64,000 nucleotides of DNA from Streptomyces sp. NBS 14/10 (lineage in GTDB: Bacteria > Actinomycetota > Actinomycetes > Streptomycetales > Streptomycetaceae), in NCBI RefSeq assembly GCF_002224125.1, contig NZ_NCSM01000004.1:124001-188000 (forward strand), read 5' to 3'. The position numbers and the translations under genes were made by a program. Under the pieces are notes generated by a model. It was given only the letters and a program-made list of their open reading frames with translations. It was not told the origin of the DNA and searched no databases. This document shows, piece after piece, positions 20,157 to 47,300 of the stretch. The first letter of the stretch is position 1. Every line of letters starts with the position of its first letter.

Positions 20157-20630
20157 ATGTCCCAGGAATCACGTCCCCCATTTCCTCCCTTCACCAGGGA
20201 ATCCGCCATCGCGAAGGTCCGCGCCGCCGAGGACGGCTGGAACACCCGCGACCCCGAGAAGGTCGCCCTCGCCTACTCGGCGGACTCCCGCTGGAGGAAT
20301 CGCGCGGAGTTCGTCAACGGCCGCGACGAGATCGTCGCCTTCCTCGCCCGCAAGTGGCGCAGGGAGCTGGACTACCGGCTGATCAAGGAGTTGTGGGCGT
20401 TCGACGGCAACCGCATCGCGGTGCGCTTCGCCTACGAGTGCCACGACGACTCGGGCAACTGGTACCGGTCGTACGGCAACGAGAACTGGGAGTTCGACGA
20501 GAACGGGCTGATGACGCACCGCTACGCCTGCATCAACGACCTGCCGATCAAGGAGTCGGAGCGGGTGTTCCACTGGCCGCTGGGACGCCGCCCGGACGAC
20601 CACCCGGGGCTGAGCGACCTCGGTCTGTGA
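20157..20630 (+). CDS. NTF2-like protein, DUF1348 family
   Basis: 157 residues with a SnoaL/NTF2-like cone fold: [47 protein letters not shown], then [23 protein letters not shown] and [19 protein letters not shown] at the C-terminus, all characteristic of DUF1348. Starts at ATG with GAGGAG 6 nt upstream. Function of the family is not established; members are commonly TetR-controlled and linked to xenobiotic stress. The double operator immediately upstream supports tight repression. Confidence 0.88.
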
Positions 20631-20653
20631 GGGCCTTGACCTCGGTCTGTGAG
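20616..20653. repeat. 22-bp-period duplication across the NTF2-like stop codon
   Basis: GACCTCGGTCTGTGAG occurs at 20616-20631, containing the real TGA, and again at 20638-20653. The second copy is intergenic and repeats the stop at the same phase within the unit. Confidence 0.8.
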
Positions 20654-20778
20654 CGCTTTGGCGTGCACTCGACGTGCTGGATGGCCACCGACTAGGCTCG
20701 GGAGTGCGGCATCGCGTGTCGGTCACCGGCTGGGTGAGACATGGAGGTGTCGGGACATGCCTTGTGGAGGCATTCCAT

Positions 20779-21171
20779 ATGTCAGTCGAGTTGAATCACA
20801 CCATCGTGCACTCCCGGGACAAGCGGGAGTCCGCCGAGTTCCTGGCGAACATCCTGGATCTTGAGGTCGGCGCCGAATGGGGCCCGTTCATCCCCGTGGG
20901 CACCAGTAACGGGGTCACCCTGGACTTCGCCACGATCCCGGCCGAGTCCATCACCATGCAGCACTACGCCTTCCTCATCTCCGACGAGGAGTTCGACGCG
21001 GCCTTCGGGCGGATCAAGCAGGCGGGGATCACCTACTACGCCGATCCGCACGGGAAGCAGCCGGGCGAGATCAACCATCACCACGGCGGGCGGGGCCTGT
21101 ACTTCCACGATCCGGCCGGCCACGGCATGGAGATCATCACCCGCCCCTACGACAACCCCGAACAGGGCTGA
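20779..21171 (+). CDS. VOC (glyoxalase/bleomycin-resistance) family protein
   Basis: 130 residues forming two betaalphabetabetabeta modules: LNHTIVHSRDKRESAEFLANIL (metal-ligand His at the first strand) and LYFHDPAGHGMEIITRPY (C-terminal H...E pattern). Start at ATG 20779 with GTGGAGG 8 nt upstream. A metal-dependent small-molecule enzyme or binding protein; substrate not deducible. It converges on the GH3 operon, from which it is separated by a strong terminator. The upstream gap 20631-20778 holds a TAGGCT -10-like element near 20693. Confidence 0.85.
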   Translation: MSVELNHTIVHSRDKRESAEFLANILDLEVGAEWGPFIPVGTSNGVTLDFATIPAESITMQHYAFLISDEEFDAAFGRIKQAGITYYADPHGKQPGEINHHHGGRGLYFHDPAGHGMEIITRPYDNPEQG

Positions 21172-21193
21172 TCGTCGGCATCGTGAGTGACGC

Positions 21194-21222
21194 CACCGGC
21201 CGGGGCCGCGCCCCGGCCGGTG
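21194..21222. terminator. Bidirectional terminator between the VOC gene and the GH3 operon
   Basis: Perfect 13-bp stem CACCGGCCGGGGC / GCCCCGGCCGGTG around a 3-nt loop, placed between two convergent genes. No U-tract on either side, as is usual in Streptomyces. Confidence 0.8.
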
Positions 21223-21234
21223 CCATGCGCGTGT

Positions 21235-21993
21235 TCACCGCGCCGCGCCCACGGTATCCGCGGTCTCCTCGGTGAGGCAGGCATACGCCCGCAGCCGGTC
21301 CGGGTGTTCCCGCTCCGCGCCGACCCGCAGTGCCGCGTACGGACCGGACAGCCCGGCAAGACGTGGCATCTGACGGATGACCAGGGTGTCCCCGGGGGCG
21401 ATCAGGCCGTCCAGGACCGCCTCGACGAGCAGATGGTTGAGGTGCACCAGGCAGTCGGCGACGGTGATTCCGGCCGTGGCCACGTACAGCTCGCGCCGCA
21501 CGGGCGGCCGGTGGCGGGGGCCGATGGCCTCCGGGATCCGGACCGGTGTGTCCGGGCGGGGTGGCAGGCCACGGGAGCCGTCGAAGAGCTTGAGCAGTCT
21601 GCGCAGCCCGGCGGAGGCGCCCGCCGGGGCCGGTCCCGTCCATGCGGCCGAGCCGTCCTCGGCGATGTGGTCGAACCGGACCCGGTCGCCGAGGTTGTCC
21701 GGGTTTCCGGCCAGGAAGATCGTACGGGAGAACGAGCCCCGCCACGCCGCCAGCCGCTCCGGCGCCAGGCCGATGGCGAACTCACAGGTGGCGCGCGCCC
21801 ATTCGGCCAGCTCGAAGCGGCGTACGACGGATACGGCGAGCAGCCCGTCGGTGTCCGCGAACTCCTGGATCCGGGCGTGCACCTCCGACAGGGCGGTGGC
21901 GGTGGACAGGTCCACCTCCTCGGCCAGATCGGGGCGGGCGACCCGGATGCGCCGCACGGCCTCGGCCCGCAGCAGGTCCTGGGAGAGCTTCAC
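21235..21993 (-). CDS. Protein of unknown function, last gene of the GH3 operon
   Basis: 252 residues, soluble, not recognised. Notable stretches are RRFELAEWARATCEFAIGLAP, FSRTIFLAGNPDNLGDRVRFDHI, a run AAWTGPAPAG, and a C-terminal part ITVADCLVHLNHLLVEAVLDG with DTLVIRQMPRLAGLSGPYAALRV. No signal peptide, membrane helix or nucleotide-binding motif is evident. I chose GTG 21993 because it overlaps the preceding stop (GTGA), as at the other junctions of this operon; the much longer open frame upstream is only the antiphase reading of the preceding gene. Strict coupling to the other four genes implies a role in the same pathway. Confidence 0.8.
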   Translation of the reverse strand: MKLSQDLLRAEAVRRIRVARPDLAEEVDLSTATALSEVHARIQEFADTDGLLAVSVVRRFELAEWARATCEFAIGLAPERLAAWRGSFSRTIFLAGNPDNLGDRVRFDHIAEDGSAAWTGPAPAGASAGLRRLLKLFDGSRGLPPRPDTPVRIPEAIGPRHRPPVRRELYVATAGITVADCLVHLNHLLVEAVLDGLIAPGDTLVIRQMPRLAGLSGPYAALRVGAEREHPDRLRAYACLTEETADTVGAAR

Positions 21994-23258
21994 AGGAACA
22001 CCGCCGGCAGCAACTCGTGGACCGGGGCCGGGCGGTGTTTGGCCAGCAGCCCGGAGGTCAGACGGTACGGGTCGACGTACGTGTGGTCGCCGCGTTGCTG
22101 CTCGAGGAAGCCGGTCAGCCCGGCTTCGGCCGCCGCGTCCGCCGGGGCCTCGTACGACGCCAGCATCCGCTCGGCGCGCACCACGCACTGGCGCAGCAGG
22201 TCCGGGCGGAACGACTGCCGGTCGCCCGGCCCGAGCGTGGCGATGAAGTACAGCCGCATGCCGAGCCGCAGCGCCGGTCCCTCGTGGTCGGCGCCCAGGG
22301 CCTCGAGCAGCGCGCCCGCCGAGTGGCCGCGCCAGTCGCCGTGGCGCGCGGACCGGATCCGGCCGTCGATCGGCACCCGCCCCACCGGCACCCGCCGCAC
22401 CACCGGGCCGAGCTCCGACAGCACACGCTGCAGCAGCTGGTAGTCGGGCTCCAGCTCGCGGTCGTAGAGCAGCACCACCTCGTCGTAGCCGGGGACGAGC
22501 GGGACCAGCTCGCGCAGCGCGCACGCCAGGTAGTTGGGCCGCCCCCGCGCCGTGGCGATCTGCCGCAGCGGCAGCCCGTACCGGGTGGCGTCCAGATAGA
22601 CCGGCCCGCCGTACTCGCGCATGTCCAGGCACAGCCCCAGCGGCACCAGGCGGTCGAGCACCTCGTCGAGGGTCATCCCGGGCGGCTGGTGTGCGGTGAG
22701 GCCGGGGTCGTGCATCCCCAGCCGCGCGTACTGCGCCGACCACAGCTCCAGGACCCGGGCGCTGGACGGATGCACCCAGCCGTGGTGTTCGATCGCGTCG
22801 AGGTACGGCCGGAGTGCGGACACCGGGGCCTGGCGGCCGTCGGCGCGGTAGCCGACGTACAGCTCGCCGATCTCCTCCTCGGACAGCTGGGAGTAGTCGG
22901 TGTCACCGAGCGTGTGGTCCAGATACTCCCAGAAGCCGAGGGTCTGGTCGGTGGGGTGGTATGTGGTGGGGCTGTAGCGGTAGGTGACATCGGCCAGCCG
23001 CGCGGTGGCGCGGTACATCACATCGACCCAGAAGAGCCCCTTGAGGTGGCTGGGGGTCAGGGGTTTGCCGGGGGTGACGGTGACCGGTGCGAGCAGCACC
23101 CGGGGCCGACCGTGGCGGGGCGCGGCCGGGGCGTCGGCGCCACCGGGCAGCGGCGCTGGGCCGTCGGGGCCACCGGGGAGCGGCGCCCGGGCGTACGACC
23201 GCCCGGGGTCGCCGCGGTCGCCGCGGAGCAGCGGTATCGGTTCCACGGTCCCCGTCAT
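21990..23258 (-). CDS. Class I aminoacyl-tRNA-synthetase-like (ArgRS-like) protein without tRNA-binding domains
   Basis: 422 residues. No obvious annotation at first sight, but three blocks follow the arginyl-tRNA synthetase core in order: PLTPSHLKGLFWVDVMYRA (compare the HIGH block PLHIGHLRGAVIGDALAR, with TPSH in place of HIGH), GGPVYLDATRYGLPLRQIATARGRPNYLACAL (compare GALWLxxTxFGxxKDRVLVRSDGTPTYLxxDIA), and VRRVPVGRVPIDGRIRSARHGD (compare HVPFGLVxGxDGKxMSTRKG). The first 45 residues are a low-complexity G/P/A-rich tail. It lacks the DALR anticodon-binding domain, so it is unlikely to charge tRNA in the normal way. ATGA overlap with the methyltransferase upstream and GTGA with the gene downstream. 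The fold is inferred from motif order only. Confidence 0.6.
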   Translation of the reverse strand: MTGTVEPIPLLRGDRGDPGRSYARAPLPGGPDGPAPLPGGADAPAAPRHGRPRVLLAPVTVTPGKPLTPSHLKGLFWVDVMYRATARLADVTYRYSPTTYHPTDQTLGFWEYLDHTLGDTDYSQLSEEEIGELYVGYRADGRQAPVSALRPYLDAIEHHGWVHPSSARVLELWSAQYARLGMHDPGLTAHQPPGMTLDEVLDRLVPLGLCLDMREYGGPVYLDATRYGLPLRQIATARGRPNYLACALRELVPLVPGYDEVVLLYDRELEPDYQLLQRVLSELGPVVRRVPVGRVPIDGRIRSARHGDWRGHSAGALLEALGADHEGPALRLGMRLYFIATLGPGDRQSFRPDLLRQCVVRAERMLASYEAPADAAAEAGLTGFLEQQRGDHTYVDPYRLTSGLLAKHRPAPVHELLPAVFL

Positions 23259-24115
23259 GCGGTGCGGCTTCCGTGGACCAGGAACACCCTCTCGGCGCCC
23301 TCGGCCGTGCGCGGTGGCACGGGGTCCCGCCACCGGCCGTAGTGGGCCGACGGCTCCCCGGGCTGCACCGCCTCGACGGTGAAGCCGTGCCGCCCGAACA
23401 GCGCCTCGGGCTGGTCCGTGCCGAACACCCACGGGCAGCCCCAGTCGGCGAACACCTTCAGCAGGCCACGCATGTTCGGCGCGGTCAGCGCCACGTCGTT
23501 GACCACGTCCGCGCCGATGCGGCTGCCGGGTGCCGCCACCGCGGCGACCCGCCGCAGCAACCCCTCGACCTCGGCCTCCGCGAAGTAGTACAGCAGCCCT
23601 TCGAAGAGCCAGGTCGACGGCAGACCGGGGTCGTACCCTGCCTCCAGTAGAGCGTCCTCCCAGCCGGGGGCGAGCAGATCGGCGGGGACCGGGCGGCGGT
23701 CGGCGCCGGGCGTCTCGGCGGCGAGCAGCTTCTCCTTGACCTCCAGGACGGACGGCCGGTCGATCTCGAAGAAGCGGACGTGGTCCGGCCACTCCAGCCG
23801 GTAGGCGCGCGAGTCCATGCCCGCCGGAGCCAGCACGATCTGGGTCATCGAGGGGTCGGCGGCCGCGCTTTGCAGCCAGTCGTCGAAGAACCGGGTGCGG
23901 ATGGGGTTGAAGTCGAAGGTGCTCGGCACCGTGCGCGGGACCTCGCCGTCCGGGAAGGTCGCCGATCTGATCTCGGCCAGCAGTTCGGGGCCCGCGTCGC
24001 CGACGAGCGTTTGCGCGTACGGGTCGTCGTAGAGCCGGTCGTCCCTGCGGCTCTCCCCGGCCCGGAGCGCGGCGGTGAGCAGACAGGTGCGCTCGATGGC
24101 GTCGAGTTGCGTCAT
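23255..24115 (-). CDS. PPM1/LCMT-like SAM-dependent O-methyltransferase
   Basis: 286 residues. YDDPYAQTLVG near the N-terminus, FDFNPIRTRFFDDWL, the SAM loop IVLAPAGMDSRAYRLEWPD, FFEIDRPSVLEVKEKLL and WLFEGLLYYFAEAEVEGLL are diagnostic of the large actinobacterial family of putative methyltransferases related to leucine carboxyl methyltransferase. Such enzymes usually methylate carboxylates or hydroxyls in secondary metabolism. Start at ATG 24115, overlapping the GH3 stop (ATGA). In this operon a carboxyl group activated by GH3 or exposed on its product is a likely target, by inference. Confidence 0.86.
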   Translation of the reverse strand: MTQLDAIERTCLLTAALRAGESRRDDRLYDDPYAQTLVGDAGPELLAEIRSATFPDGEVPRTVPSTFDFNPIRTRFFDDWLQSAAADPSMTQIVLAPAGMDSRAYRLEWPDHVRFFEIDRPSVLEVKEKLLAAETPGADRRPVPADLLAPGWEDALLEAGYDPGLPSTWLFEGLLYYFAEAEVEGLLRRVAAVAAPGSRIGADVVNDVALTAPNMRGLLKVFADWGCPWVFGTDQPEALFGRHGFTVEAVQPGEPSAHYGRWRDPVPPRTAEGAERVFLVHGSRTA

Positions 24116-25854
24116 GATCGATCTCCTTGCCGGGCGGCCGCGCCGGTGAGCTGCCGCCAGTTCTCCGGGTCCGGTCGGAAAAGCCGGTCCTTGACCTGAG
24201 TGGGGCGCACCCCGCGGCCGACCGATTCCTGCCACTCCTCCAGGAAGGCGTCACGGTCGAGCCGGATCAGCTCGGCGGGGCCGAGCCGGCCGGCGTCGCG
24301 GGCCGCGCGGTAGTCGGCCGACTCCTGGGTGAGCTCGGTGTCGAGCGCCGCGGTGAGCCGCCGTGTCTCGTCGGTGCTCCACGCCGACTCGCCGGCCAGG
24401 GCGAACACATAGCGGGGCGGCCGGCCGTCGGGGGTCTCCACATGGCATGCGGCGTTGCGCACGGCGAGGCCGGCGCCGCCCAGCGCGGACTGCAGGGCCC
24501 GGACGACCTGTGCGTCGCGCAGCCGCTCCCCGGCCACGTCGGAGCGGTTCTTGCGGCCCGCGTACGACACCCGCGGCACACCGTCCACGACATCCACCAC
24601 CCGGACCACATCCCCACCCGCATAGCGGTACAGGCCGCCGACATGGCTGTAGATCGCGTGGTACTCCCGGCCCGGCTCCAGCTCGTGCGGTGCGAGCGTC
24701 TCCACATCGGGGCCCAGGTCGCGGTCGGCGTCCACGAACTCGTACACGGAGGCCGTGACGACCAGGCTGCCCGCCGTCGGATGCCGGTCGAGCGCCACGC
24801 CGACCGGGCCCTCGGAGGCCGCCACGGGCGCCGGCAGGGCCGTCACCGAGGGGCCGAACTCCTCGCGGAGCCGGGGCAGATAGAGCGAGGCGAGGCCGGT
24901 GGTCCAGCAGAACAGCAGCCGCATGTTCGGCCAGATGTGGGCGGGCCGTACGGTGCCGAAGTACCGCTCCAGCCGCTCCAGTTCGGCGGCGCGCTCCGGG
25001 TTGGGGGAACGGAACGGATGGCCGCCGAGCGTGCCGTCGCGGACGTCCTTGACGATCCGCGGCCACCACAGCCTCAGCTGGTACGGCACCGCGGCGACCA
25101 TCGCCGGATTGATCCCGATGACACAGCGGACATCGCTTTCGACGGCCATGCGCAGCCGCAGATACATCTTCTCCACATGGTCGTCCGCCGCCACCGGCAC
25201 CGGCAGGGTGGCCCAGGGAGCCGCGGTGCCCGGCTCGGCCGACAGATGCTCGCCGAACATCTTCCCGAAGTCCACCTGGCTGGCGCCGACATGGGGGCGT
25301 CCGGAGGCGGTGGTGGCGGGCGCGACGACGGGGTCGTGCTTGAGGTTGAGCACCGCGTCCGGCCGGGTGAGGACGTCCGGGAAGTGTTCGGCCATCGGGG
25401 CCCAGGCGGCGTAGTAGAAGGGGAAGAAGGTGGTGTGCATGAAGCGCGGGGTGACCGGGATCTTCTTATGCGCTCCGGTGCTGCCGCTGCTGGTGAAGAA
25501 CACCGCGGGCTGGTCGGCGGTCAGGACGTTGGGCTCGCCCTCGGCCATGCGCTCGATCCACGGCGAGAGCGCCGTGTAGTCCTGGACCGGAACCGCCTTG
25601 CGGAGGTCGTCCAGGGTGCGCAGCCGGTCGAAGCCGTGGGCCTTGCCGTAGGCCGTTCCCGCGTTGAACGTCAGCAGGTCGGTGAGGACTTCGCGCTGCC
25701 GCGCCGCCGGGTCCGAGAACGCCCGCCGCAGCCGTTTCCGCTCCTCGAACACCCGGGCCCGGTAGCTGTCGAGCCGGCCCTCGGCGGCCGAAGGCTCAGT
25801 GTTCTGGTCCTCGGCGGCCGGGGCCTCCGCGGCCTGGGGCTCAGCGGTCTTCAT
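24112..25854 (-). CDS. GH3-family acyl-adenylate-forming amido synthetase
   Basis: 580 residues. Clear GH3-domain landmarks: AGTAYGKAHGFDRLRTLDDLRKAVPVQDY, the ATP loop FFTSSGSTGAHKKIPVT, then VVTASVYEFVD, EPGREYHAIYSHVGGLYRYAGGDVVRVV and the C-terminal VKDRLFRPDPENWRQL. In plants GH3 enzymes join jasmonate, indole-acetate or benzoates to amino acids through an acyl-adenylate; bacterial members are known from phytotoxin and other pathways. The N-terminus has an A/E-rich tail. The first 14 nt overlap the kinase gene in another frame, and the stop overlaps the methyltransferase start. It is the best defined catalytic centre of this operon; substrate cannot be read from sequence. Confidence 0.88.
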   Translation of the reverse strand: MKTAEPQAAEAPAAEDQNTEPSAAEGRLDSYRARVFEERKRLRRAFSDPAARQREVLTDLLTFNAGTAYGKAHGFDRLRTLDDLRKAVPVQDYTALSPWIERMAEGEPNVLTADQPAVFFTSSGSTGAHKKIPVTPRFMHTTFFPFYYAAWAPMAEHFPDVLTRPDAVLNLKHDPVVAPATTASGRPHVGASQVDFGKMFGEHLSAEPGTAAPWATLPVPVAADDHVEKMYLRLRMAVESDVRCVIGINPAMVAAVPYQLRLWWPRIVKDVRDGTLGGHPFRSPNPERAAELERLERYFGTVRPAHIWPNMRLLFCWTTGLASLYLPRLREEFGPSVTALPAPVAASEGPVGVALDRHPTAGSLVVTASVYEFVDADRDLGPDVETLAPHELEPGREYHAIYSHVGGLYRYAGGDVVRVVDVVDGVPRVSYAGRKNRSDVAGERLRDAQVVRALQSALGGAGLAVRNAACHVETPDGRPPRYVFALAGESAWSTDETRRLTAALDTELTQESADYRAARDAGRLGPAELIRLDRDAFLEEWQESVGRGVRPTQVKDRLFRPDPENWRQLTGAAARQGDRS

Positions 25855-26494
25855 CTGACAACACCTTTCGTATGGCCTGAGCGGTCTGGGCGATATCGCC
25901 CTGCGCCCGGATCACCGTGACCGGCAGATGGCTGATCTCGTCGAGCATCAGGCGCCGCAGTTTGGTCTGGTAGGCCGCGAAACCCTTGGGGTCGGGGCGG
26001 TCGCCGTAGTACTCCAGCCGGTTGGTGGCCGCGCCGTTGCCGGAGCGGCGCCAGGCCGTGGAGGTGGACACGTCCAGGAACACCACGCGCCGCGGCTGCG
26101 GAAAGGAACGCCACCAGGTGAACATCGGGTTGTCCCGCAGCCCGGCGAGCCGGCACTTGGCCAGGATCTTGTAGTAGTACGAGTCGACGAGTGTGGGGGA
26201 CGACGGGTCGCTCGCCTCGATGCGGTCGCGCAGATGCACCACGGCCGTCTGGAGCAGACTGGCCGTGAATTCCGGCGAGTAGTCCGTCCCCAGGGACGGC
26301 AGCACATCCACCGCCACATCCCTGCGCAACCGGCCGATCAGCGCGTGGGCGGGCTGAAGAAAACGTTCGTCCGTGGAGATGAGCCGCCAGGCCGGGGACG
26401 AGCTGGCGAACTCGGACATCACCGAGGACTTTCCGGCGTAGTCCGGCCCCAGGAGGACGGAGAAACCGGGATGGGTCGTCCGCACGATCGGCAC
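25841..26494 (-). CDS. P-loop nucleotide kinase-like protein (thymidylate-kinase fold)
   Basis: 217 residues. The Walker A motif GPDYAGKSSVM (GxxxxGKS) is at residues about 17-25. A middle lid-like basic region (RRSGNGAATNRLEYYGDRPDPKG) and the VVFLDVSTSTAWRR segment resemble thymidylate kinases (LDVxxxxAxxR). It is the first gene of the five-gene operon and would phosphorylate a nucleotide or small-molecule hydroxyl; alternatively it could serve as an ATP-dependent accessory protein. The end overlaps the GH3 start by 14 nt. Confidence 0.8.
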   Translation of the reverse strand: MPIVRTTHPGFSVLLGPDYAGKSSVMSEFASSSPAWRLISTDERFLQPAHALIGRLRRDVAVDVLPSLGTDYSPEFTASLLQTAVVHLRDRIEASDPSSPTLVDSYYYKILAKCRLAGLRDNPMFTWWRSFPQPRRVVFLDVSTSTAWRRSGNGAATNRLEYYGDRPDPKGFAAYQTKLRRLMLDEISHLPVTVIRAQGDIAQTAQAIRKVLSDEDR

Positions 26495-26902
26495 TCCTTA
26501 CGTAGTTCCGGTGCTCGCCACCGCGGTCCGGGCCGCGGTGGCGGCCCGCCGATCGGCTGCCGGGGGTGCCGTCCCGGCTGGGTGGGGAAAGTCAACATCG
26601 CCGGGATGGGCGTTCGATCAGGAGAAATTGGGATGCGAGCGGGTGTTCGGAAGTCGCGGGCCGGAAAGTGGAGCGGCGGCCACCAGATCGGTGTTGACGT
26701 CGAATAACACGCCGCATGCCAGGGCCCGCTGGACGAAAGTTGATGTCCATATCCTGGTCCGCCTCCCGGCGGGGGCGGGCGGAAGGCCGGAAGACCGGAC
26801 TTTTCCCCGGACTTTTCTTGCCACGCAGAACACTGCGGCCCGTAGGCCACGGCGACTAGAGTGATCGACGAGCGTCGGGGGACAAGGCTCGGAGGCGAAG
26901 GA
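26495..26902. promoter_or_regulatory. Divergent control region between the GH3 operon and its SARP regulator
   Basis: About 400 bp without a supportable gene. It contains a 9-bp inverted repeat (CCACCGCGG 26518-26526 / CCGCGGTGG 26533-26541, 6-nt loop) near the kinase start, and a perfect 10-of-12 tandem direct repeat CCGGACTTTTCC / CCGGACTTTTCT (26795-26818). A -10-like TAGAGT (26857-26862) leads into the regulator, whose ATG has GGAGG 7 nt upstream. SARP proteins bind tandem direct repeats near -35, so the 12-bp repeats are the natural candidate operator, though they lie some 38 bp upstream of this -10. Confidence 0.5.
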
Positions 26903-29068
26903 ATGCGGGGGACGGCCTTTTCGCGCGCGTGCGCGGAGCGGCAGTGGGCACGGCCGGCGGTCTTTCTCATGGTCTACGCGACGGTGGCCGCGCGGCTGGG
27001 GGAGCCGGCGGAGGTGACCGCGCGCCAGTTCCACCGGTGGCGGCAGCCCGGGCCGCCCTGCCCTCAACCCTCCGCACAGCGTGTCCTGGAGGAGATGTTC
27101 GGCACCCCGCTGCACCACCTCGGCTTCGACCTGCCCGAACACCGCCGACGGGACACGGCCGCACCCCCGGTGGCCGCGGCCGAACCGCCCCCGGCCGCCC
27201 TGCGGTTCGCGGTCCTGGGGCCGGTGCGGGTGCGGCGCGGCGACGAGCCACTCGCCGCGGGGCGGCCACAGGAGCGCGCCCTGCTGTGCGCGCTGCTGAT
27301 GCGCCGCGGCCACACGGCCACCGCGCAGGAACTGATGGACGCGGTGTGGGGCGGCAAACCGCCGCGCCGCGCACTCGCGACCCTGCGGACGTACGCCTTC
27401 CAACTGCGCAAGACCCTCGGCCCCCGCGCTCTGGTCTCCGACTCCGGCGGATACGCGCTGCACATGCCGCCCGAGGCGCTGGACCTGGTGGTGTGCGAGG
27501 GCTACGAGGCGCAGGCCAGGATCGCGCGGGCCGCGGGCGAACTGCCGCGCGCCCGGACACTGCTCCACAAGGCCCTGGACCTGTGGGACGGCGAACCGCT
27601 CGGCGGTGTCCCCGGGCCCTACGCCCAGGCACAGCGCGCCCGTCTGACGGAGTGGCGGCTCACCCTGTTACAGACCCGCCTGGAACTCGACCTGGAACTG
27701 GGCCACCACACCGCGGCCATCGCGGAGCTCACCGCGCTGTCCTTCGAATACCCGCTGCGGGAGCGGCTGCGCGCGCTCCAGATGCTCGCGCTGTACCGCG
27801 GCGGCCGACAGGCCGAAGCGCTGCGGGTGTACACCGACACCCGCCGTCTGCTCGCCGAAGAGCTCGGCGTCGACCCCGGCCCCGAGCTGACCGAGCTCTA
27901 CCAGAACGTCCTGTGCGCCTCCCCGGCCCTCGCCCGCCCCACGGCCCCGCGACGGCGCCCGCCCGCCAAGGACACCGTCCCGTACGCCTCACCGCGCCCC
28001 GCACCGCCCCCCGCGCAGCTCCCTGCGGAATCAGCCGACTTCACCGGTCGCGCCGCCCTCGTACACCGGCTGGCCGAGCAACTGCCCCGCGCCCAGGGCG
28101 CGGTGATGCCCGTCCTCGCCGTCCGCGGGCTCGGCGGAGTGGGCAAGACCGCGCTGGCGTTACGCGTCGCCCACACGGTCCGCGGCCACTTCCCCGACGG
28201 ACAGCTCTACGCCGATCTGCTCGGCCACGGCGCCGGTCCTGCCGACCCTGGAGCCGTCCTCGCCGCGTTTCTGCGCGCCTTGGGCGTTCCCGCCGCCGCC
28301 GTCCCCGAAGGAACACCCGAACGGGCCGCGCTCTACCGGTCCACCCTCGCCGGCCGCCGGGTGTTGGTCCTGCTCGACAACGCCCACGACGGACCCCAGA
28401 TCCGCCCCCTGCTCCCCGGCGCCCCCGGCTGCGCCGCCCTGGTCACCAGCCGCGCCCGGCTCGCCGACCTCGACGGCGCCCGCCCGCTGGACCTCGACGT
28501 CATGACCCCGGACGAAGCCCTGACCCTGTTCACCCGCGCCATCGGCGAGGAGCGCGCCGAGGCCGAACCCGTCGCCTGCCGCGAGACCGTTGCCGCCTGC
28601 GGCTTCCTCCCGCTGGCCATCCGTATCGCCGCGGCCCGCCTGTCCGCCCGCCCCGCCTGGACCATCGCCGCCCTGGCCGCCCGGCTGGCGGACGAGCGCG
28701 GCCGGCTGGACGAGTTGCGGATCGGCGACCTCACCGTAGCCTCCTGCTTCGCCTCGGCGTACCGCCGGCTCCGACCCGACCAGGCACGCGCCTTCCGCCT
28801 GCTGGCGCTCGCGGACGGCCCCGACCTGTCCCTGCCCGTGGCCGCCGCGCTGCTCGGCCGCGACCGGCGCGACCCGGACGTCGAACCCCTGCTGGATTCC
28901 CTCGTCGACAGCGGCCTCCTGGAGTCACCCGCCCCTGGCCACTACCGCTACCGCGCCCTGATCCGGCTCTACGCCCGCCGCCGCGCCGACACCGAGGCCG
29001 AGGCCGATGTCGCCGGAGGGGACGGGGGAGATCAGCTCCTCACGGCCACCCCCTTGAAGAACGTGTAG
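26903..29068 (+). CDS. AfsR/SARP-family transcriptional regulator with N-terminal HTH-like and NB-ARC domains
   Basis: 721 residues. Residues about 10-85 resemble the N-terminal DNA-binding tail of Streptomyces XRE-type proteins (RQFHRWRQPGPPCPQPSAQRVLEEMFG). Then an OmpR-like winged helix (LRFAVLGPVRVRRGDE ... ALATLRTYAFQLRKTLG), a bacterial transcriptional activation domain with TPR-like helices, and an NB-ARC ATPase with P-loop GLGGVGKTALALRVAH and LVLLDNAHDGPQIRPLLPG. Two TTA codons (residue 256 at 27668-27670; residue 420 at 28160-28162) make translation dependent on the bldA tRNA. It is divergent from the GH3 operon, which it probably activates. The 3' end overlaps the convergent methyltransferase gene by 37 bp. 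Start ATG 26903 has the only good ribosome-binding site. Confidence 0.88.
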   Translation: MRGTAFSRACAERQWARPAVFLMVYATVAARLGEPAEVTARQFHRWRQPGPPCPQPSAQRVLEEMFGTPLHHLGFDLPEHRRRDTAAPPVAAAEPPPAALRFAVLGPVRVRRGDEPLAAGRPQERALLCALLMRRGHTATAQELMDAVWGGKPPRRALATLRTYAFQLRKTLGPRALVSDSGGYALHMPPEALDLVVCEGYEAQARIARAAGELPRARTLLHKALDLWDGEPLGGVPGPYAQAQRARLTEWRLTLLQTRLELDLELGHHTAAIAELTALSFEYPLRERLRALQMLALYRGGRQAEALRVYTDTRRLLAEELGVDPGPELTELYQNVLCASPALARPTAPRRRPPAKDTVPYASPRPAPPPAQLPAESADFTGRAALVHRLAEQLPRAQGAVMPVLAVRGLGGVGKTALALRVAHTVRGHFPDGQLYADLLGHGAGPADPGAVLAAFLRALGVPAAAVPEGTPERAALYRSTLAGRRVLVLLDNAHDGPQIRPLLPGAPGCAALVTSRARLADLDGARPLDLDVMTPDEALTLFTRAIGEERAEAEPVACRETVAACGFLPLAIRIAAARLSARPAWTIAALAARLADERGRLDELRIGDLTVASCFASAYRRLRPDQARAFRLLALADGPDLSLPVAAALLGRDRRDPDVEPLLDSLVDSGLLESPAPGHYRYRALIRLYARRRADTEAEADVAGGDGGDQLLTATPLKNV

Positions 29069-29901
29069 TGAAACGTCCCGCCGTCGTCCGCCGTCCGGCG
29101 CAGATCGGCGATGCCCCGGTCCCAGTCGCTCCGGGTGATCAGATCCGCGGCCAGCGCGTCGTCGCGGACGGACTCGACCATGGCGATGAAGGTGTTGCGG
29201 GTGAAGCCGTCCACCAGGGCCGGGCGGGTCCGGTCGGCGTAGACGGTCCGCGGGCGGACGACCACGTCCGCGTACCCGGCCTCGGCCAGCAGCGGCTGCA
29301 ACCGCCGGCCGATCAGGGCGTCGCCGCCCGCCGCCGACTGGAGCTGGATCTGGCGGTCGATCGCCGCGTGGGCGTAGAGGCTGGAGGGGTGGAAGAACGC
29401 CGAGCCGTGGTCCCCCTCGATCACGGTGATCGTGCCCCCGGGCCGCAGCACCCGCCGCAGCCCGGCCAACACCCGCCCCGGGGCGCTCAGATGCTCCAGT
29501 ACGAAGCACACGAAGACATGGTCGAACGACGCGTCCGCGAACGGCAGGCCGAAGACATCGGCGTGGCACCACTCCACCCGGGCGTCCGGTGCGTGCGCCG
29601 CCACGTTGGCGCGGGCGCGGGCGAGGGAGGCGGCGGAGACGTCCGCCGCCACGATGTGGGCTCCGGGGCTGGACGCGACCAGATGGACGGTCTGGGCGCC
29701 CACCCCGCAGCCCACTTCCAGCACCCTGCTGCCGGCCGGGTAGGCCGTGTCCGCGTGCAGCAGCGCGGCGAGCGTGTCCGCCTGGTCGCCGAGGCGGCGG
29801 GCCTCGTGGCGCGAGTAGCCGTGTACGTAGCCGGGCGCCGTGCCCGTGCCCGTGCCCGTGTCCGTGCCCGTGTCCGTGCCCGTATTCGTGTCCGTGTGCA
29901 T
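29032..29901 (-). CDS. Class I SAM-dependent methyltransferase
   Basis: 289 residues. Motif I RVLEVGCGVGAQTVHLV, acidic residue in IVAADVSAASLARAR, FDHVFVCFVLEHLSAPGRVL and LRPGGTITVIEGD are classical for UbiE-type methyltransferases. Start at ATG 29901; the N-terminal 20 or so residues (HTDTNTGTDTGTDTGTGTGT) are a Thr-Gly-Asp repeat produced by a hexanucleotide repeat and are surely not part of the fold. It overlaps the SARP gene tail to tail by 37 bp. The MocR gene is divergent, so this could be its target, or it may be a tailoring enzyme for the GH3 pathway. Confidence 0.88.
   Translation of the reverse strand: MHTDTNTGTDTGTDTGTGTGTAPGYVHGYSRHEARRLGDQADTLAALLHADTAYPAGSRVLEVGCGVGAQTVHLVASSPGAHIVAADVSAASLARARANVAAHAPDARVEWCHADVFGLPFADASFDHVFVCFVLEHLSAPGRVLAGLRRVLRPGGTITVIEGDHGSAFFHPSSLYAHAAIDRQIQLQSAAGGDALIGRRLQPLLAEAGYADVVVRPRTVYADRTRPALVDGFTRNTFIAMVESVRDDALAADLITRSDWDRGIADLRRTADDGGTFHYTFFKGVAVRS
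29838..29897. repeat. Hexanucleotide (GTGCCC/GTGTCC) simple repeat
   Basis: About ten contiguous copies of GTGCCC or GTGTCC with one GTATTC variant. On the minus strand they encode the T-G-T-D repeat at the methyltransferase N-terminus. Because the unit is 6 bp, slippage changes peptide length by two residues without a frameshift. Confidence 0.9.
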
Positions 29902-38396: not shown

Positions 38397-41300
38397 ATGC
38401 CCGCCAATGGCCCCGCCCCGGGGATTCCGCTTGCCGCTCAGCGCGAATTCTGGATCGCCCACTCCCTGCGCCCGGACAGCGCCGCCTACAACATCGGCGA
38501 ATATATCGAGATACGCGGCCGACTCCGTTTCGATTTATTCGAGTCCGCCCTGCGCCACGCCTTCGCCGAATGCGCGGCGCTCGCGGTGCGGTTCATCGCG
38601 GACGAGGCCGGTCCGCGCTGGGCCGTCAAGGGACGCGACGACTTCCCGCTCGTCCGCGTCGACCTGACGGCCGAAGCGGACCCGCGCGCCGCCGCCGAGC
38701 GATGGATGGCGGAATTCTTGGCCAGGCCGGTTCCGCTGCCGGACGGTGAGCTGGTCGCCTACGCGGTGATCCAGTTGGCGGACGATCTCTATTACTGGTG
38801 CAGCCGATATCACCACATTCTCGTCGACGGATTCAGCGGACCGCTTATCGCGCACCGAGTGGCGGGGGTCTACTCGGCGCTGGACGCGGGCGAGGAAATA
38901 CCGCCGAGCCCCTTCGGTGATTTCGGCGGACTGCTCGCCGAGGAAGCGGAATACCGCGCTTCGGAGGCGTTCGTCCGGGACCGTGACTACTGGCTCGAGA
39001 AATTACGCGACCTTCCGGAACCCGTTTCCCTGACCCGCCGGCACGCGCCCGCCTCCGGTTTCACCAGGGCCTCGGACCGCCTGTCGCCCCAGGATCTGCT
39101 CGCCCTGGACCGCGTCTGCGAGCGGGCCAGAATCCATCGCTCCGCGATGCTCTTCGCCCTGGCCGCGCTGTATCTGCACCGGATGACCGGGGAGCCGGAA
39201 GTGGTGCTCGGGCTCGTCGTCGCGGCCCGCACCACCCCGGCCGCCAGGATCACCCCCGCCGTCCTGTCCAACGTCCTGCCCGTCCGGCTGTCCCCGCGCC
39301 CGGAGATGACCGTCGAGGAGCTGGCGCGCACCGCCCAGAAGGCGATGCGGTCAGCCCTGGCCCACCAGCGCTACCGCGCGGCCGACATGGCGCGCCTGGT
39401 CTCGCAGGACGACCAGCCCGCCCGGCTGTACTCGATGATCGTCAACATTATGTCGTTCGACTACGACCTGCGGTTCGGCCCGCACCCCGCCGTCGCGCAC
39501 AACCTGTCCACCGGCCCCGTCGAGGACCTGGCGCTCGCCTTCACCGACCACCTGGACGGCCGGGGCCTCACGGTCGACCTGGACGCCAATGCCGCCGTAT
39601 GGGGCGGCGCCGAGGCGCGGGGCCACGGCGCGCGGATCTCCTGCCTGCTGAGGACCGTCGCGGCCGGCGGCAGCGGCATGTCGCTCGCCGAGGTCCCCCT
39701 GCTCTCCGACCGCGAACGGGGCTCCCTGCTGCGCAAGGCCACCGAGGCGGCCGTGGTGGTGCCCGACGCCACGGCGGACGAGCTCTACGAGCGGCAGGCC
39801 CGGCTCCACCCCGACCACCCCGCCGTGCTCTCCGGTTCCGCCGAGCTCTCGTACGCCGAACTCAACACACGGGCCAACCGGCTGGCGCGGGCGCTCATCG
39901 AGCGCGGCGTCGGCCCCGAGACACCGGTCGCGCTCACGCTCCAGCGGTCCGTCGAGTTCGTCGTCGCGGTCCTCGCCGTCTGGAAGGCGGGCGGCGCCTT
40001 TCTGCCGGTCGACCCGCACTATCCGCCCGCGCGCGTCGAGTTCATGCTCTCCGACGCGCGGCCCGCGCTGACGGTGACGACCACGGCCCATGCGCGGACC
40101 GTCGGACACCTGCCGGGCGACCGGCTGCTCCTGGACGCCCCCGAGACCGTCCGCGACCTGGCCGGCCGCGACCCCGCGGACGTACGGGACGAGGAGCGGC
40201 ACGCGCCGCTCGACCCGCGCCACCCCGCGTATGTGGTCTATACGTCCGGGTCCACCGGTACGCCCAAGGGGGTCGTGGTGACCCACGCGGGCCTGCCGAG
40301 CCTGGTGCACACCCAGCGCACCCGGTTCGGCGTCGGGCCCCGCTCCCGGGTCCTGCAGTTCGCCTCGCCGAGCTTCGACTCCGCGGTCTGGGAGCTGACC
40401 GCGGCGCTGCTGTCCGGCGGCTGCCTGGTCATCGGCGCCGACGGCACGCCGCCCGCCGGCCCCGAACTGCCCGAGCTGATCACCGGCCTCGGCGTCACAC
40501 ACGCCGTGCTGCCGCCCGCCGTGCTGGCGAGCCTGGACCGCGGCACCCTCCCGGCCGGGCTCAGGCTGATGTCGGTGGGCGAGGCGCTGCCGCCGGCGCT
40601 GGCGGCCGACTGGGCCGCCGACACCGTCCTGCTCAACGGCTACGGCCCGACCGAGGCCACCATCTGCGCGGCCATGAGCGGCCCGCTCGGCGGCGAGGGC
40701 ACACCCCCGATCGGCAGCTCCGCCGCCAACGCCGCCGCGTACGTACTCGACGCCGCCCTGCGCCCGGTCCCCGTCGGCACGGTCGGCGAACTCTGGCTGA
40801 GCGGGCCCGGGCTGGCCAGGGGCTATCTGAACCGGCCCGGCCAGACCGCGCAGCGGTTCGTCGCCAACCCCTACGGCCCGCCCGGGTCACGGCTGTACCG
40901 CACCGGCGACCTGGTGCGGCGACGCGAGGAGGACCAGCAGTTGGAGTACGTGGGGCGCGCCGACGGACAGGTCAAGGTGCGGGGCCTGCGGATCGAGGTC
41001 GGCGAGATCGAAGCCGTGCTGGCGGGCCATCCGGCGGTCCGGCGGGCCGTGGTGACGGCCGACGAGATCCGCCCCGGCGCCACCCGGCTGCTGGCCCATG
41101 TCCTCCCCGAGCCGGACACCGGCCACGCCACGGCCGCCGCGCTCCCGGCCGAGCTCATGGCCCGAGCCAAGAGCGGGCTGCCGGACTTCATGGTGCCCGC
41201 GCAGATCGTCCTGGTGGACCAGCTGCCGCTGAGCCCCAACGGCAAACTCGACCGGGCCGCGCTCCCGAAGCCCCGGCCGGCCGAGGACACCGGACACCGG

Positions 41301-44300
41301 GCCCCGCGGACCGACCGGGAAGAGCTGTTCCACGAGCTCTTCACCGACATCCTCGGCCTTGACCACGTGGGCGTCGACGAGAGCTTCTTCGCCCTCGGCG
41401 GCGACAGCATCCTCTCCCTCACCCTGGTCAGCCGCGCCCGCGCCGCCGGGCTCGCCATCTCCCCGCGCGAGGTGTTCGAACACCGCTCCGTGGCCGCGCT
41501 GGCGCAGGCCGCCCGCTCCGCGGCGGACACCTCCGACGGCGATGGACCGCACACCACCGACGACAGCGGCGAGCTCTCCCCGACCCCGATCATCCGCTGG
41601 CTGACGGGCCTGGGGCCGGACGCCGTCAAGGAGTTCCACCAGTCGGTGCTGGTGCGGGTGCCCGGCGACCTGCGCCATGACCACCTGGCCGGCGCGCTCG
41701 ACACCCTGCTCGACCGCCATGCCGCGCTTCGCCTCCGGCTGGGCGCAGGGGAGGGCGGCGCCCTGGAGATCGCCCCGCGCGGCGCCGTCCGCGGCCATGA
41801 CTGCCTGACCCGGGTGCCCGTAAAGGATGAAGACCCTAACAACAATGCCACGGCGCGGTGGCGCCGGACCGTCGAGGCGGCCTCGGAGGAGGCGCGCGGC
41901 CAACTCGACCCGGAGAAAGGGGTGTTGCTGCGGGCGGTGTGGTTCGACGCGGGCCCCGAGCGGCCCGGCCGACTGCTGGTGCTGATCCACCACCTCGCGG
42001 TCGACGGGGTCTCCTGGCGCGTACTGCTGCGCGACCTCGCCGACGCCTGGGCCGCGGCCGCCGAGGACCGGCCCCTCGCGACCCCCGGCCCGGTGACCTC
42101 CCTGCGGCGCTGGTCCCGGCTGCTGACCGAGGGCGCACACCACGAGGCCCGGACGGCCGAGCTCCCGCTGTGGGAGAACATCCTCGACGGCGCCGACCCG
42201 CTCCTCGGCCCCCGCCCGCTGGACCCCGTCCGGGACACCGCCACCAGCGCCAGGATGCTGTCGCTCTCCCTGCCGGCCGACGCCACCGCCGCGCTGCTGA
42301 CCTCCGTACCCGAGCGCTATCACACCGGGATCAACGACGTCCTGCTGACCGCGCTCAGCCTCGCCGTGGTCGAGTGGCGGCGGCGCCGCGGCATCGGCGA
42401 CACGGACGATGTGCTGCTGGAACTCGAAGGGCACGGCCGGGAACACCTCGCCGACGGCGTCGACCTCAGCCAGACCGTCGGCTGGTTCACCAGCATGTTC
42501 CCCGCCCGGCTCGCCCCCGGAACACTCGACTGGGCCGAGGTGACGGCCGGTTCCGCGGGGCTCGGCACCGCCGTCAAGACGGTCAAGGAACAGCTCGCGG
42601 CGCTGCCGGACCACGGCATCGGCTACGGCATGCTGCGCCACCTCAACCCCGACGCGGCACACCGGCTCGCCGGACGCACCGGCCCGCAGATCGGCTTCAA
42701 CTACCTCGGCCGGTTCACCGCGTCCGACGGCTCCGACTGGCTGCCCGACCCGGACCCCGACTTCGGAGCGCTGCGCGGCGGCTTCCCGCCCGGTATGCCG
42801 CTGCCGCACACCCTGGCCCTCAACGCGCACACCGAGGACCGCGAGGACGGCCCGCGGCTCACGGCGGTGTGGATCTGGGCGGGTGAACTGCTGGACGAGG
42901 CGGCCGTACAAGAGCTCGCCGACGCGTGGTTCGCCGCGCTCACCGGCCTGGTGGCCCACGCACGGGCCATCGGAAACCTCGCGCACACCGCACACCGCGG
43001 CCACACCCCCTCCGACTTCCCCCTGGTCTCGCTGTCCATGGCCGAGGTGGAGCGGCTGGAGCGGACCGTGCCGGAGCTGGCCGACATCTGGTCGGTGTCC
43101 AGCCTTCAGCAGGGGCTGCTCTTCCACGCCGTGTACGACGACACCGCCCACGACGACTACGTGGTGCGGTTCGGCCTGGACCTGGCGGGCGACGTCGACC
43201 CGGCGCGGCTGCGCACCGCCATCGAGGGGCTGTTCGCCCGCCACCCCGGGCTGCGCGCGTGCTTCGTACGGGAAGGGCTCGCCGAACCGGTGCAGGTGAT
43301 CGCCGCCCAGGTGGCCCCGGAGTGGCGGGAACACGATCTGTCGCGGCTGGACGGGCCCGCGCGCGAGGCCGAACTGGCCCGGCTGCTGGACACCGACAGC
43401 GGGCGGCGCCTCCCCGTGGACACCGCCCCGCTGGCCCGCTGCATGCTGCTGCGGCTCGGAGCGGACAGCTACCGGCTGATCCTCACCAGCCACCATCTGC
43501 TGCTCGACGGCTGGTCGATGGCGCTGCTGTCGCGCGAACTGCTCGCGCTGTACGACGCGGGCAACGACCCGGATGACCCCGCCGCGCTGCCCGCGCCCCG
43601 CCCGTACTCCGCCTATCTGTCCTGGCTGAAGGGGCAGAACACTCAGGCGGGGCTCGACGCCTGGCACACCGCCCTGTCCGGGGTGGCCGGGCCCACCCTC
43701 GCGGCGCGCCCGGACACCCCCGCGACGGCCGCCACCCGGCGGCACGTCCTGGAGCTGACGGCCGAGCAGACCGCCACGCTGACCGCGTACGCCCGCCGCC
43801 ACGGCCTGACGCTGAACACGGTGGTGCAGGGCGCCTGGGCGATCGTGCTCGGCTGGCTGACCGGCCGCGACGACGTGGTCTTCGGCGTCACCGTCTCCGG
43901 CCGCCCGCCCGAGATCGACGGCATCGACACCATGGTCGGGCTGTTCATCAACACCGTGCCCGCCCGGGTCCGGCTGCGCCCGGACGAGACGTTCCCGGAG
44001 CTGCTGACCCGCGTCCAGGACGAACAGGCCCGGCTGCTGGACCACCACCACATCGGCCTCACCGACATCCAGCGCCGCATCGGCACCGGCCGGCTCTTCG
44101 ACACCCTCCTGGTCTACGAGAACTACCCGCACGACCCGGACGCCCTGCGCTCCGCCTCCAAGCGCCTGACCGTCACCGGGGTGCACCCCGAGGACGGCAC
44201 CCACTACCCGCTCAGCGTGGTCGCGCTCCCCGGCGAACGGCTGCGGATCCACGTCAACTACTGCCCGGACACCGTCGGCCGGAGCCGGGCGTCGGCCGCC

Positions 44301-47300
44301 GCCGACGCGCTGGAACGCCTGCTCACCGGGGTGCCCGTCATGCCCGGAGCGGCCGAGGCCCCGGTGGCGCGGCTGCTGACCGCGGCCGCGCCGCAGCCGG
44401 CGCCCGGGGGCGTACGGTGCGAGGAGACCCTGCCGGAGCGGTTCGAGGCACAGGTGCGGACCACCCCGCACAGCATCGCCGTGGTCGACGGCCGGCGCTC
44501 CCTGACGTACGCGCAGCTCAACGACCGCGCCAACCGCCTGGCGCGGCTGCTGACCGGGCACGGCGCCGGGCCGGAGCGGGTGGTGGCGCTGGCGGTCGAC
44601 CGCCGGGCCGAACTGGTCGTGGCGCTGCTGGCCGTCCTCAAGAGCGGCGCGATGTATCTGCCGGTGGACCCCGCCTATCCGCGCGAGCGCGTCGGATTCA
44701 TCCTCGCGGACGCCGCCCCGGTGTGCGTGATCACCACCACCGACACCGCAGCCGCGCTGCCCGACGGCCTCGACGTACCGGTCGTGGAGCTCGACGCGCC
44801 GCAGGTCATGAGCGCCATGCGGGACCTCGCGCCGACCGATCTGACCGACGCGGACCGCGGCGGCCCGCTCACCCCGGCGCACGGCGCCTACATCATCTAC
44901 ACCTCGGGCTCGACCGGGCGGCCCAAGGGCGTGCTGATCCCGCACGAGAACGTCATCCGGCTGTTCACCTCCACCGACCACCTCTTCGGGTTCGGGGCGG
45001 ACGACGTGTGGACGCTGTTCCACTCCTACGCGTTCGACTTCTCGGTGTGGGAGATCTGGGGCCCGCTGCTGTACGGCGGTTCGCTGGTGATCGTGGAGCA
45101 CACCGTCACCCGGTCCCCGGGCGAATTCCTGGAGCTGCTGGTCGAACAGGGCGTCACCGTGCTCAACCAGACCCCGTCGGCCTTCTACCAACTCCTCGGC
45201 GCCGACCGCGACCGCCCGGAGCTGGGCGCACGGCTCGCCCTGCGGTATGTGGTGTTCGGCGGCGAACGGCTCGACGTCTCCCGCCTCGAGGACTGGTACA
45301 CCAGGCACCCTGAGGACGCGCCGCGGCTGGTCAACATGTACGGCATCACCGAGACGACCGTGCACGTCACCCACACCGAACTGGTCCGCGCCGACGCGGT
45401 GCGGGACGCCTCGGTCAGCCCCATCGGGCGGCAGATCCCCGATCTGCGGCTGTATGTCCTCGACCATCTGCTGCGCCCGGTGCCCCCGGGCTCCGTAGGC
45501 GAGCTGTACGTGGCCGGACCCGGCCTGGCCCGCGGCTACGCGGGGCGGCCCGCGCTGACCGCCGAGCGGTTCGTCGCCGACCCGTTCGGCGCCCCCGGCG
45601 AGCGCATGTACCGCACCGGAGACCTGGCCCGCCAGGGCGGCGACAGCGGGCTGGAGTACGTCGGACGGGCCGACGGCCAGGTCAAGCTGCGGGGCTTCCG
45701 GATCGAGGTCGGCGAGATCGAATCCGCGCTCACGGCCCTCGACCAGGTGGCGCGGGCGGCCGTGGTGCTGCGCGAGGACCGGCCCGGCAGACCGGCGCTG
45801 GTCGGCTATCTGGTGGCCGAGCCCGGCGCAGCACTGCCCGGGGCCGCCGAACTGGCGGCGCTCGCGGCGGCCCGGCTGCCGGTCCATATGGTGCCCTCCG
45901 CGTTCGTGGAGATGCCCGAACTTCCGCTGACGGTCAACGGCAAACTGGACCGCGCCGCCCTCCCTGCCCCCGACTTCACGGCCGCCTCGACCGCGGCCCG
46001 GCCGCGCACCCCCGTGGAGGAGACCCTGTGCTCGCTGATGAGCGAGGCGCTGGGGGTGGACAGCGTCGGCGTGGACGACGACTTCTTCCTGATGGGCGGC
46101 GACTCCATCGTCTCCATGCGCTTCGCCGATATGGCACGCCACGCCGGTCTGGCGCTGCGGCCCAGGGATGTGGCGGAGGGCCGTACGGTCGCGGCGCTGG
46201 CCGCGATCGCCGAGCGGAGCGCGCCGCGCCGGGGGCCGGCCGGAGAGGGCCGCCACCGGGACGGCGGCGGCGCGGGCGACGGGGCGGGCGACGGAGTGGG
46301 CGAGCTCCCGGCGACGCCGATCATCAGGCGCATGTGGGACGTCGACGGGCCGATCGACGCGTACCACCTCTCCATGGCGGTCCGCGTCCCGGCGGATGCG
46401 CGCGCCGAGCATCTGACCGCCGCCCTCCAGGCGCTCGTCGACCGCCATGACGCGCTGCGGATGCGGCAGCAGGACGACCAGGGGCGGCGGGCGCTGGAGA
46501 TCGCGGAGCCCGGCTCGGCCCGGGTGGCCGACTGCTTCACCCACCAGATCATCCAGGTCGCCGACGAGGCGGAGTGGCCCCCGGCGCTGGCCGAGGCGTC
46601 CTTCCGCCACCAGGCGCGGCTCGACCCCGCGTCCGGCCGCACCCTCCAGGCCATCTGGCTGGACCCCGGTCCTGAGCGGCCCGGCCGGCTGCTGATCCTG
46701 CTGCACCACCTCGTGGTCGACGGGGTCTCCTGGCGGTTCCTGCTGCCGGACCTGGCCCGCGCGTACGAGGCGGTCGCCGTCGGCCGGCGGCCGGATCTGC
46801 GGGCACCGGCGACCTCCTACCGCAGGTGGGCACGGCACCTGGTCGAGGAGGCCGTGGAGCCCGCGCGCGAGAAGGAACTGGAGATGTGGACGAGGATGTT
46901 CGAGCCGCAGCGGCCCACGCTGGGCACCCGGCGGCTCGACCCGCGGACCGACACCCTGGCCTCGGCGCGGATGGCGCTCTTCGACCTCCCGGAGGAGGAC
47001 ACGGCGACGCTGCTCGCGGTGCCCGGCGCGCTGGGCGTGGACCTGCGCGATGTGCTGTACGCGTCGTTCGCCGTCGCCTACGCGCGCTGGCGGGGCGACG
47101 AGGGTACCGGCGTGCTGGTGGACCTCCAGGCGCACGGCCGTGAATTCCTGGCCGACGGGGTCGATCCGTCGTCCACCGTCGGATGGTTCACCGCGCAGTT
47201 CCCGCTCATCCTGGATCCGGGGGAGATCTCCGAGGAACAACTCGACGCCTCCGGCGCCGCGTTGACCGAGGGCGCCGCGCGGGTGGGGGCCCAGCTCGCG

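Follow-up and report, generated by a model that had tools for sequence, protein, structure and literature searches.

A conserved five-gene operon of Streptomyces sp. NBS 14/10 encoding a GH3-type ligase and an ArgRS-like protein: an uncharacterised, probably biosynthetic gene set

We analysed a stretch of 64,000 nucleotides (nt) of Streptomyces sp. NBS 14/10 (contig NZ_NCSM01000004.1, positions 124,001 to 188,000; called the window below) and in it a compact operon of five minus-strand genes, 26485–21235, that encode in this order a kinase, a GH3-type ligase, an LCM-type methyltransferase, a protein resembling arginyl-tRNA synthetase (ArgRS) and a DUF6182 protein (Table 1). The five open reading frames of the original prediction are all present, and successive genes overlap by 14, 4, 4 and 4 nt; S. 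milbemycinicus (L030) and S. sparsogenes (L031) have this gene set too, with identical overlaps at all four junctions (L and G numbers are our handles for related loci and genomes). Nonsynonymous/synonymous ratios of 0.17–0.34 against L031 and 0.07–0.25 against L030 indicate that all five genes are under purifying selection. This is a real, conserved and uncharacterised biosynthetic operon, and its ArgRS-like enzyme is more interesting than its GH3 protein. The 12.1 Mb genome holds a single DUF6182 match and a single GH3 match, both in the operon. The kinase gene had been started at GTG 26494; the gene stands, and GTG 26485 is the likelier start because 26494 falls inside the AAGGAG ribosome-binding site that lies 8 nt before 26485, a change that leaves the 14-nt overlap as it was.

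Table 1. Features of the operon and its flanks (window coordinates; aa, amino acids; SAM, S-adenosylmethionine)
Feature	Position	Strand	Remark
P-loop kinase, thymidylate-kinase-like at long range, 214 aa	25841..26485	-	start GTG 26485
GH3-type acyl-adenylate ligase, 580 aa	24112..25854	-	PF03321/PF23571/PF23572
LCM/PPM1-family SAM methyltransferase, 286 aa	23255..24115	-	PF04072, TIGR00027
ArgRS-like class I adenylating enzyme, 422 aa	21990..23258	-	no Pfam match; arginine-recognising Asp absent
DUF6182 protein, 252 aa	21235..21993	-	PF19680
Perfect 13-bp hairpin, candidate terminator without T-run	21194..21222	-	after last gene, between convergent genes
SARP/AfsR-type regulator (BTAD + NB-ARC), divergent, upstream of operon	26861..29068	+	start 26861 or 26903
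Direct repeat of AAAGTCCG, period 12, kept in three species	26796..26815	-	kinase-SARP intergenic region

The product of the last gene, previously left unrecognised, matches DUF6182 at 359.5 bits, above cut-off and over 242 of 242 profile positions. Besides the start, twelve of its residues are invariant in 32 of 32 sequences, among them Trp84, Trp118, Arg223, His187 and Glu191; the last two form an H-x3-E motif on one predicted helix, which hints at a candidate active site. The GH3 and PPM1-like methyltransferase assignments, made at first from motifs, are borne out by profile searches. GH3 matches PF03321 at 169 bits, GH3_M at 49 and GH3_C at 43 (cut-off 23.6), and its ten matches in the PDB are all plant GH3 enzymes (best E 4e-21). 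The three nucleotide-binding motifs (SSGSTGAHKK, VAASEG and GLYRYAGGD), described for plant GH3 and for the bacterial OlsH (PMC12493201), are present in the window protein; pattern searches of 26 relatives recovered motif I in 25, motif II in 20 and motif III in 20, with the misses not inspected. The methyltransferase matches PF04072 (154 bits) and TIGR00027 (215 bits), both above cut-off, and its closest PDB entries are the mycobacterial ML2640 and Rv0731c. The kinase has no Pfam or NCBIfam match above cut-off, and Thymidylate_kin is not among its matches; its profile gives thymidylate kinases as the longest matches in the PDB (E about 0.01), and G13, D15, G18, K19, S20 and D101 are invariant in 20 of 20 sequences. 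Beyond this weak similarity nothing points to the nucleoside product that had been suggested.

The operon is one form of a gene set that occurs in Streptomyces and in some related actinomycetes. Of 392 Streptomyces genomes, 27 have a DUF6182 match above cut-off, and one weak match brings the count to 28; a phylum-wide sample of 396 genomes yielded two, namely the window's genome and another Streptomyces. Each of the 27 carries an ArgRS-like gene no more than five genes away from DUF6182, and 25 of them have GH3 as well, so the genes are co-inherited, and the scattering that would have spoken against the original prediction is not seen. A scan of named genomes for the ArgRS-like gene gave 11 loci, from Streptomyces, Kitasatospora, Actinophytocola and one unplaced actinobacterium. 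GH3 itself occurs in 36 of the 392 genomes (35 over cut-off), of which 25 also carry DUF6182. Among the eleven without it, the match in G016 is weak, and in G150 the GH3 gene stands with methyltransferase and ArgRS-like genes close to the end of a contig; from the remaining nine, the GH3 genes of seven were inspected together with a second GH3 of G145, and all eight belong to a different gene set. DUF6182 and GH3 lie on separate contigs in G152, and GH3 is split across two contigs in G168. Genes of the relatives were called with our own predictor, which always writes Met as the first residue, so that their starts are approximate. We also note a second conserved GH3 set in eight Streptomyces regions (L172–L179), whose GH3 is 27–32% identical to that of the window; all eight encode three further proteins, one alpha/beta-hydrolase-like (~292 aa), one enolase-like (~390 aa) and one a conserved protein (~300 aa), seven carry two small putative regulators, and TetR genes are often nearby (all names given from sequence).

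The ArgRS-like gene and DUF6182 are present in all 31 loci compared (L030–L060), and the genes around them fall into several forms. Besides the window, the five-gene form occurs in L030, L031, L034, L038 and L060, and with another order in L041. A nine-gene form has in addition a FAD_binding_3-type flavoprotein gene between the methyltransferase and ArgRS-like genes and, downstream, genes for a ~210-aa LysR-substrate-domain protein, an alpha/beta hydrolase and a second methyltransferase; of the 31 loci, 14 contain all four extra genes and 12 of these the full nine, the other two (L037 and L054) being truncated, whereas the set in L051 is intermediate. L042 and L044–L048 represent a third form, which consists of ArgRS-like, DUF6182, GH3, hydroxymethylglutaryl-CoA (HMG-CoA) reductase and thymidylate-kinase-like genes without the LCM gene, and its kinase is related to the kinase of the window form (hhalign 88% probability, E 3e-6). 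The HMG-CoA reductase of these loci has a C-terminal extension of ~390 aa with the motif H-N-D-[FL]-N-P-R-N, which we take to be like that of aminoglycoside-phosphotransferase-type kinases; the one copy searched, that of L042, matches Pfam in the reductase part only. In a fourth form (L049 and L050) kinase, DUF6182, ArgRS-like, AfsA-domain and ketosynthase genes stand together without GH3. Adjoining the last two genes there is a family of 284–296 aa (L049 10290–11180, L050 10356–11210), with no Pfam match in L049 and a histidine-triad-like H-F-H-V-W motif near its end. GH3 is missing from the locus table for five of the 31 loci (L036, L037, L048, L049 and L050): L036 opens with the ArgRS-like gene at the end of its contig, L037 starts inside GH3, and in L048 GH3 was recovered by tblastn in the same place (L025). 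The five genes are thus not indispensable to each other, because L049 and L050 lack GH3 and L042–L050 lack the LCM gene.

Transfer RNA (tRNA) genes lie near four of the 31 cassettes: tRNA-Arg in L054 (5083–5158) and L057 (2706–2779), tRNA-Glu in L060 (15440–15514) and tRNA-Trp in L039 (14991–15064). The GH3 gene of L054 is truncated near the tRNA-Arg, an arrangement that suggests integration-type mobility; the genome of this locus, G168, contains a further DUF6182, fragmentary and on a different contig. A distant homologue of the ArgRS-like protein (42%) is encoded at 873481–874539 of NZ_CP109493.1, a 1.04-Mb Streptomyces plasmid typed as mobilizable; the 72,556 plasmid records searched gave no other match.

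The ArgRS-like protein has no Pfam or NCBIfam match above cut-off, and tRNA-synt_1d matched none of 24 members of its family in a search to E 10 with filters that discard the majority of weak hits. Its predicted structure, modelled from an alignment of only 12 sequences (pLDDT 61), has a class I fold closest to ArgRS, which upholds the resemblance originally read from motifs. At position 247, where 27 of 27 ArgRS have Asp, the 32 ArgRS-like proteins have A (21), I (6), T (2), L (2) or M (1); the ArgRS comparison set for this and for the profile work was length-filtered, with 27 of 29 loci kept. We take this Asp, of the Y-x3-D motif, to be the arginine-recognising residue of ArgRS, and the ArgRS-like protein seems to have lost it. 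The second His of the HIGH motif is kept in 32 of 32.

Downstream of the operon, the original prediction had placed a strong terminator. The hairpin is there, with a perfect G+C stem of 13 bp and a 3-nt loop, and the region (69 nt) folds at -40 kcal/mol (z -2.5; 4 of 200 shuffles equally good); the T-run is not, and a scan of 20500–27500 found neither a T-tailed terminator nor a sigma-70-type promoter. On its far side a convergent glyoxalase-like gene ends at 21171. The divergent SARP gene is as predicted (Trans_reg_C 29.5 bits against a cut-off of 26.2, BTAD 149 bits, NB-ARC 41 bits), and beyond it, at 29032–29901, lies a different methyltransferase gene. Judged by sequence, L031 also keeps the SARP gene and further neighbours on either side. 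An alignment of three species shows conservation of the region between the kinase and SARP genes, and its period-12 repeat of AAAGTCCG is possibly a SARP-type operator.

We propose that the five genes make up a working, SARP-associated biosynthetic operon with two AMP-forming ligases and without a polyketide synthase, nonribosomal peptide synthetase (NRPS) or terpene core, a reading to which we give an even chance; it probably yields a small natural product through a pathway not yet characterised. We infer the following reactions and step order, with their classes of acid and acceptor, tRNA independence and SARP control. Two different ATP-dependent, AMP-forming ligases would couple small acids to amines or hydroxyls to give a small conjugate. 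GH3 would activate one carboxylic acid as acyl-AMP and transfer it to an amine, and the ArgRS-like protein with DUF6182 would join a second acid to a small acceptor; the kinase would phosphorylate a hydroxyl on an intermediate, and the LCM enzyme would methylate a carboxylate to a methyl ester. An amide or ester conjugate, as first suggested, would be the outcome. More tentatively, and with some doubt, we suggest that the ArgRS-like protein and DUF6182 could together be a ligase of two proteins, independent of tRNA and so far undescribed, which would have evolved from ArgRS by losing arginine recognition, and that they could form the constant core of a family of clusters in which GH3 and LCM, GH3 and HMG-CoA reductase, or AfsA and ketosynthases accompany them, parallel to the hydrazine-forming pair of a MetRS-like protein and a cupin.

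Several observations weigh against the first of these proposals. A SARP adjoining the set was recognised in no locus besides those of the window, L031, L041 and L180; no GH3 match was found anywhere in genomes G013 and G108 (those of L049 and L050); and the LCM gene is absent from nine of the 31 loci (L042–L050). As for the ArgRS-like protein and DUF6182, the ArgRS-like model has a mean pLDDT of only 61, with much of its C-terminal part below 50, and the DUF6182 model (pLDDT 76) gave no clear fold match. A profile comparison of the ArgRS-like family with actinobacterial ArgRS gave no signal, pairwise Z scores between the two average 1.3 (best 3.5), and the best PDB sequence match of the protein is an ArgRS but is not significant (E 0.55). 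The first His of HIGH (H-x-G-H) is present in none of the 32 proteins and 31 of them have Ser where actinobacterial ArgRS carry the KMSKS-type Lys, and because of these two losses catalysis by the ArgRS-like protein is not assured.

The set might instead have no pathway of its own and serve neighbouring scaffolds (angucycline, lasso peptide or NRPS) by tailoring them or supplying their precursors, which we regard as rather unlikely. In its favour are the location of the nine-gene form in a rubiginone cluster (PMC8487521), the lasso-peptide-type genes that adjoin the third form in L046 and L048 (the asparagine-synthase domain by profile, the others named from sequence), and L043, where ArgRS-like, DUF6182, kinase and GH3 genes lie beside an NRPS-like gene (from sequence). 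The window too has an NRPS gene ~12 kb from the operon (38397–47690, plus strand), for a protein of 3097 aa with four condensation stretches and two adenylation domains; no link between it and the operon was found. Against such a role, the neighbours vary between loci, and the pathway passages of the published rubiginone account name none of the nine genes (PMC8487521). The inactivations that these passages list (orf3/orf4, rubF1/F2, rubN1, rubN2 and rubM4) include none of them either, and thus a role in the rubiginone pathway is neither shown nor excluded.

The shorter form also raises the question of decay, since the window operon lacks four genes of the nine-gene cassette, whose core has the window's five genes in the same order. 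None of the four is among the genes adjoining the operon, and a search of the rest of the genome for two of them gave only remote homologues, at best 31% identical for the flavoprotein and with E 3e-4 for the LysR-sensor-like protein; the hydrolase and second methyltransferase were outside that search. In a concatenated tree of 22 loci (23 full sets, less L182, whose ArgRS-like protein is the same as that of L033), the five-gene L034/L181, near-identical and both retained, and L038 fall inside nine-gene clades with support of 0.99–1.00, which is most simply explained by independent losses of the four accessory genes, at least twice. L038 bears a deletion scar: over its first 28 residues the ArgRS-like protein there aligns with the flavoprotein N-terminus at a score of 73 (at most 59 in 300 shuffles, 21–40 for eight control N-termini), which supports loss as the origin of the five-gene form in L038. 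The window's own clade is poorly placed (0.10), and its lineage was possibly reduced likewise. That the operon is a decaying remnant with no product is nevertheless unlikely, as its five genes are intact with ratios of 0.07–0.34, their overlaps are kept in three species, and the same five are retained on the separate branches of L034/L181 and L038. Distances of the five proteins correlate in all ten pairs (r 0.72–0.93; none of 999 permutations reaches the observed values), to which shared descent alone contributes.

Alternatively, the ArgRS-like/DUF6182 pair might work through tRNA, charging it or using an aminoacyl-tRNA donor with DUF6182 as a peptidyl-tRNA-hydrolase-like partner, a route we consider decidedly unlikely. 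Resistant copies of aminoacyl-tRNA synthetases are known beside antibiotic genes, and such immunity copies normally resemble functional enzymes, which itself tells against the same role here. That the ArgRS-like protein is a self-immunity copy against an ArgRS-directed product is highly improbable: its predicted ArgRS-like fold and the precedent of the resistant LeuRS of agrocin 84 (PMC5059758) would fit, but the arginine-recognising Asp and first HIGH His are absent in 32 of 32, the proteins are about 370–420 aa long against 595 in the host's ArgRS, and their sequence relation to that enzyme is hardly detectable.

If the proposed biosynthetic operon and ligase pair are right, a ligase lineage derived from ArgRS would join the tRNA-synthetase relatives recruited to small-molecule biosynthesis, DUF6182 would gain a function, and ArgRS-like plus DUF6182 would serve as a search rule for clusters that core-enzyme rules may miss. 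About 7% of the sampled Streptomyces genomes (27/392) carry such a set, and unseen chemistry may therefore be widespread; for direct heterologous expression the five-gene form is compact enough.

Compared with ArgRS, the ArgRS-like protein shares the fold, the Lys before the HIGH motif, the second HIGH His and Tyr243; it differs in the missing Asp and first His, its model aligns only from ArgRS residue ~115, its C-terminal part is shorter and there is no significant sequence-profile match. It resembles MshC in its predicted class I synthetase fold, its length of ~400 aa and a model alignment over 300 residues; this length and alignment would suit an MshC-type enzyme without the full anticodon-binding part, though the model falls below pLDDT 50 over much of its C-terminal stretch. 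Unlike MshC, which groups with CysRS, it is nearest to ArgRS, and cysteine ligation is not expected. MshC, the mycothiol cysteine:GlcN-Ins ligase, forms its amide through cysteinyl-AMP, and together with PanC exemplifies class I synthetase folds that make amides from acyl-AMP and amines, as described in PMC6594144. PyrN, Spb40 and Tri28 are MetRS-like and cupin pairs, and the MetRS-like domain of PyrN and its partner have been shown to act without tRNA on a small acceptor (PMC8664883). Shared with the window is a tRNA-synthetase-like enzyme with a partner protein; there it is MetRS-like, with a cupin, and an N-N bond is made, whereas here it is ArgRS-like with DUF6182. For GH3 the counterpart is OlsH of Singulisphaera, a GH3-like N-acyl-ornithine synthetase and thus a bacterial GH3 that makes an N-acyl amino acid, its amide being formed ATP-dependently (PMC12493201). 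Both are bacterial GH3 proteins with shared nucleotide-binding motifs, but the window GH3 scores only 70 bits against the OlsH model (cut-off 620), has a different neighbourhood and presumably has different substrates.

The closest published counterpart of the whole set is the nine-frame segment rubM2–rubP4 of the rubiginone cluster of Streptomyces sp. CB02414, printed in 2021, whose products are listed as a hypothetical protein (209 aa), GH3 (567), methyltransferase (291), oxidoreductase (488), two hypothetical proteins (373 and 254), a Lys-family regulator (212), a hydrolase (260) and a methyltransferase (288) (PMC8487521). By size, order and annotation in the published table, rather than by comparison of sequences, this is the nine-gene form, of which the window operon has only five genes. 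The same source reports the same organisation in S. hundungensis (DWB77_01891–01899) and proposes that the rub segment was inserted by horizontal transfer or transposition; antiSMASH placed the S. hundungensis segment in no recognisable cluster (PMC8487521), in keeping with the original prediction that standard genome mining would miss such a set. The claim of a new cluster holds only in part, since the nine-gene version had already been published: the cassette is unexplained rather than unseen, standing in the literature as an unexplained segment of the rubiginone cluster (PMC8487521).

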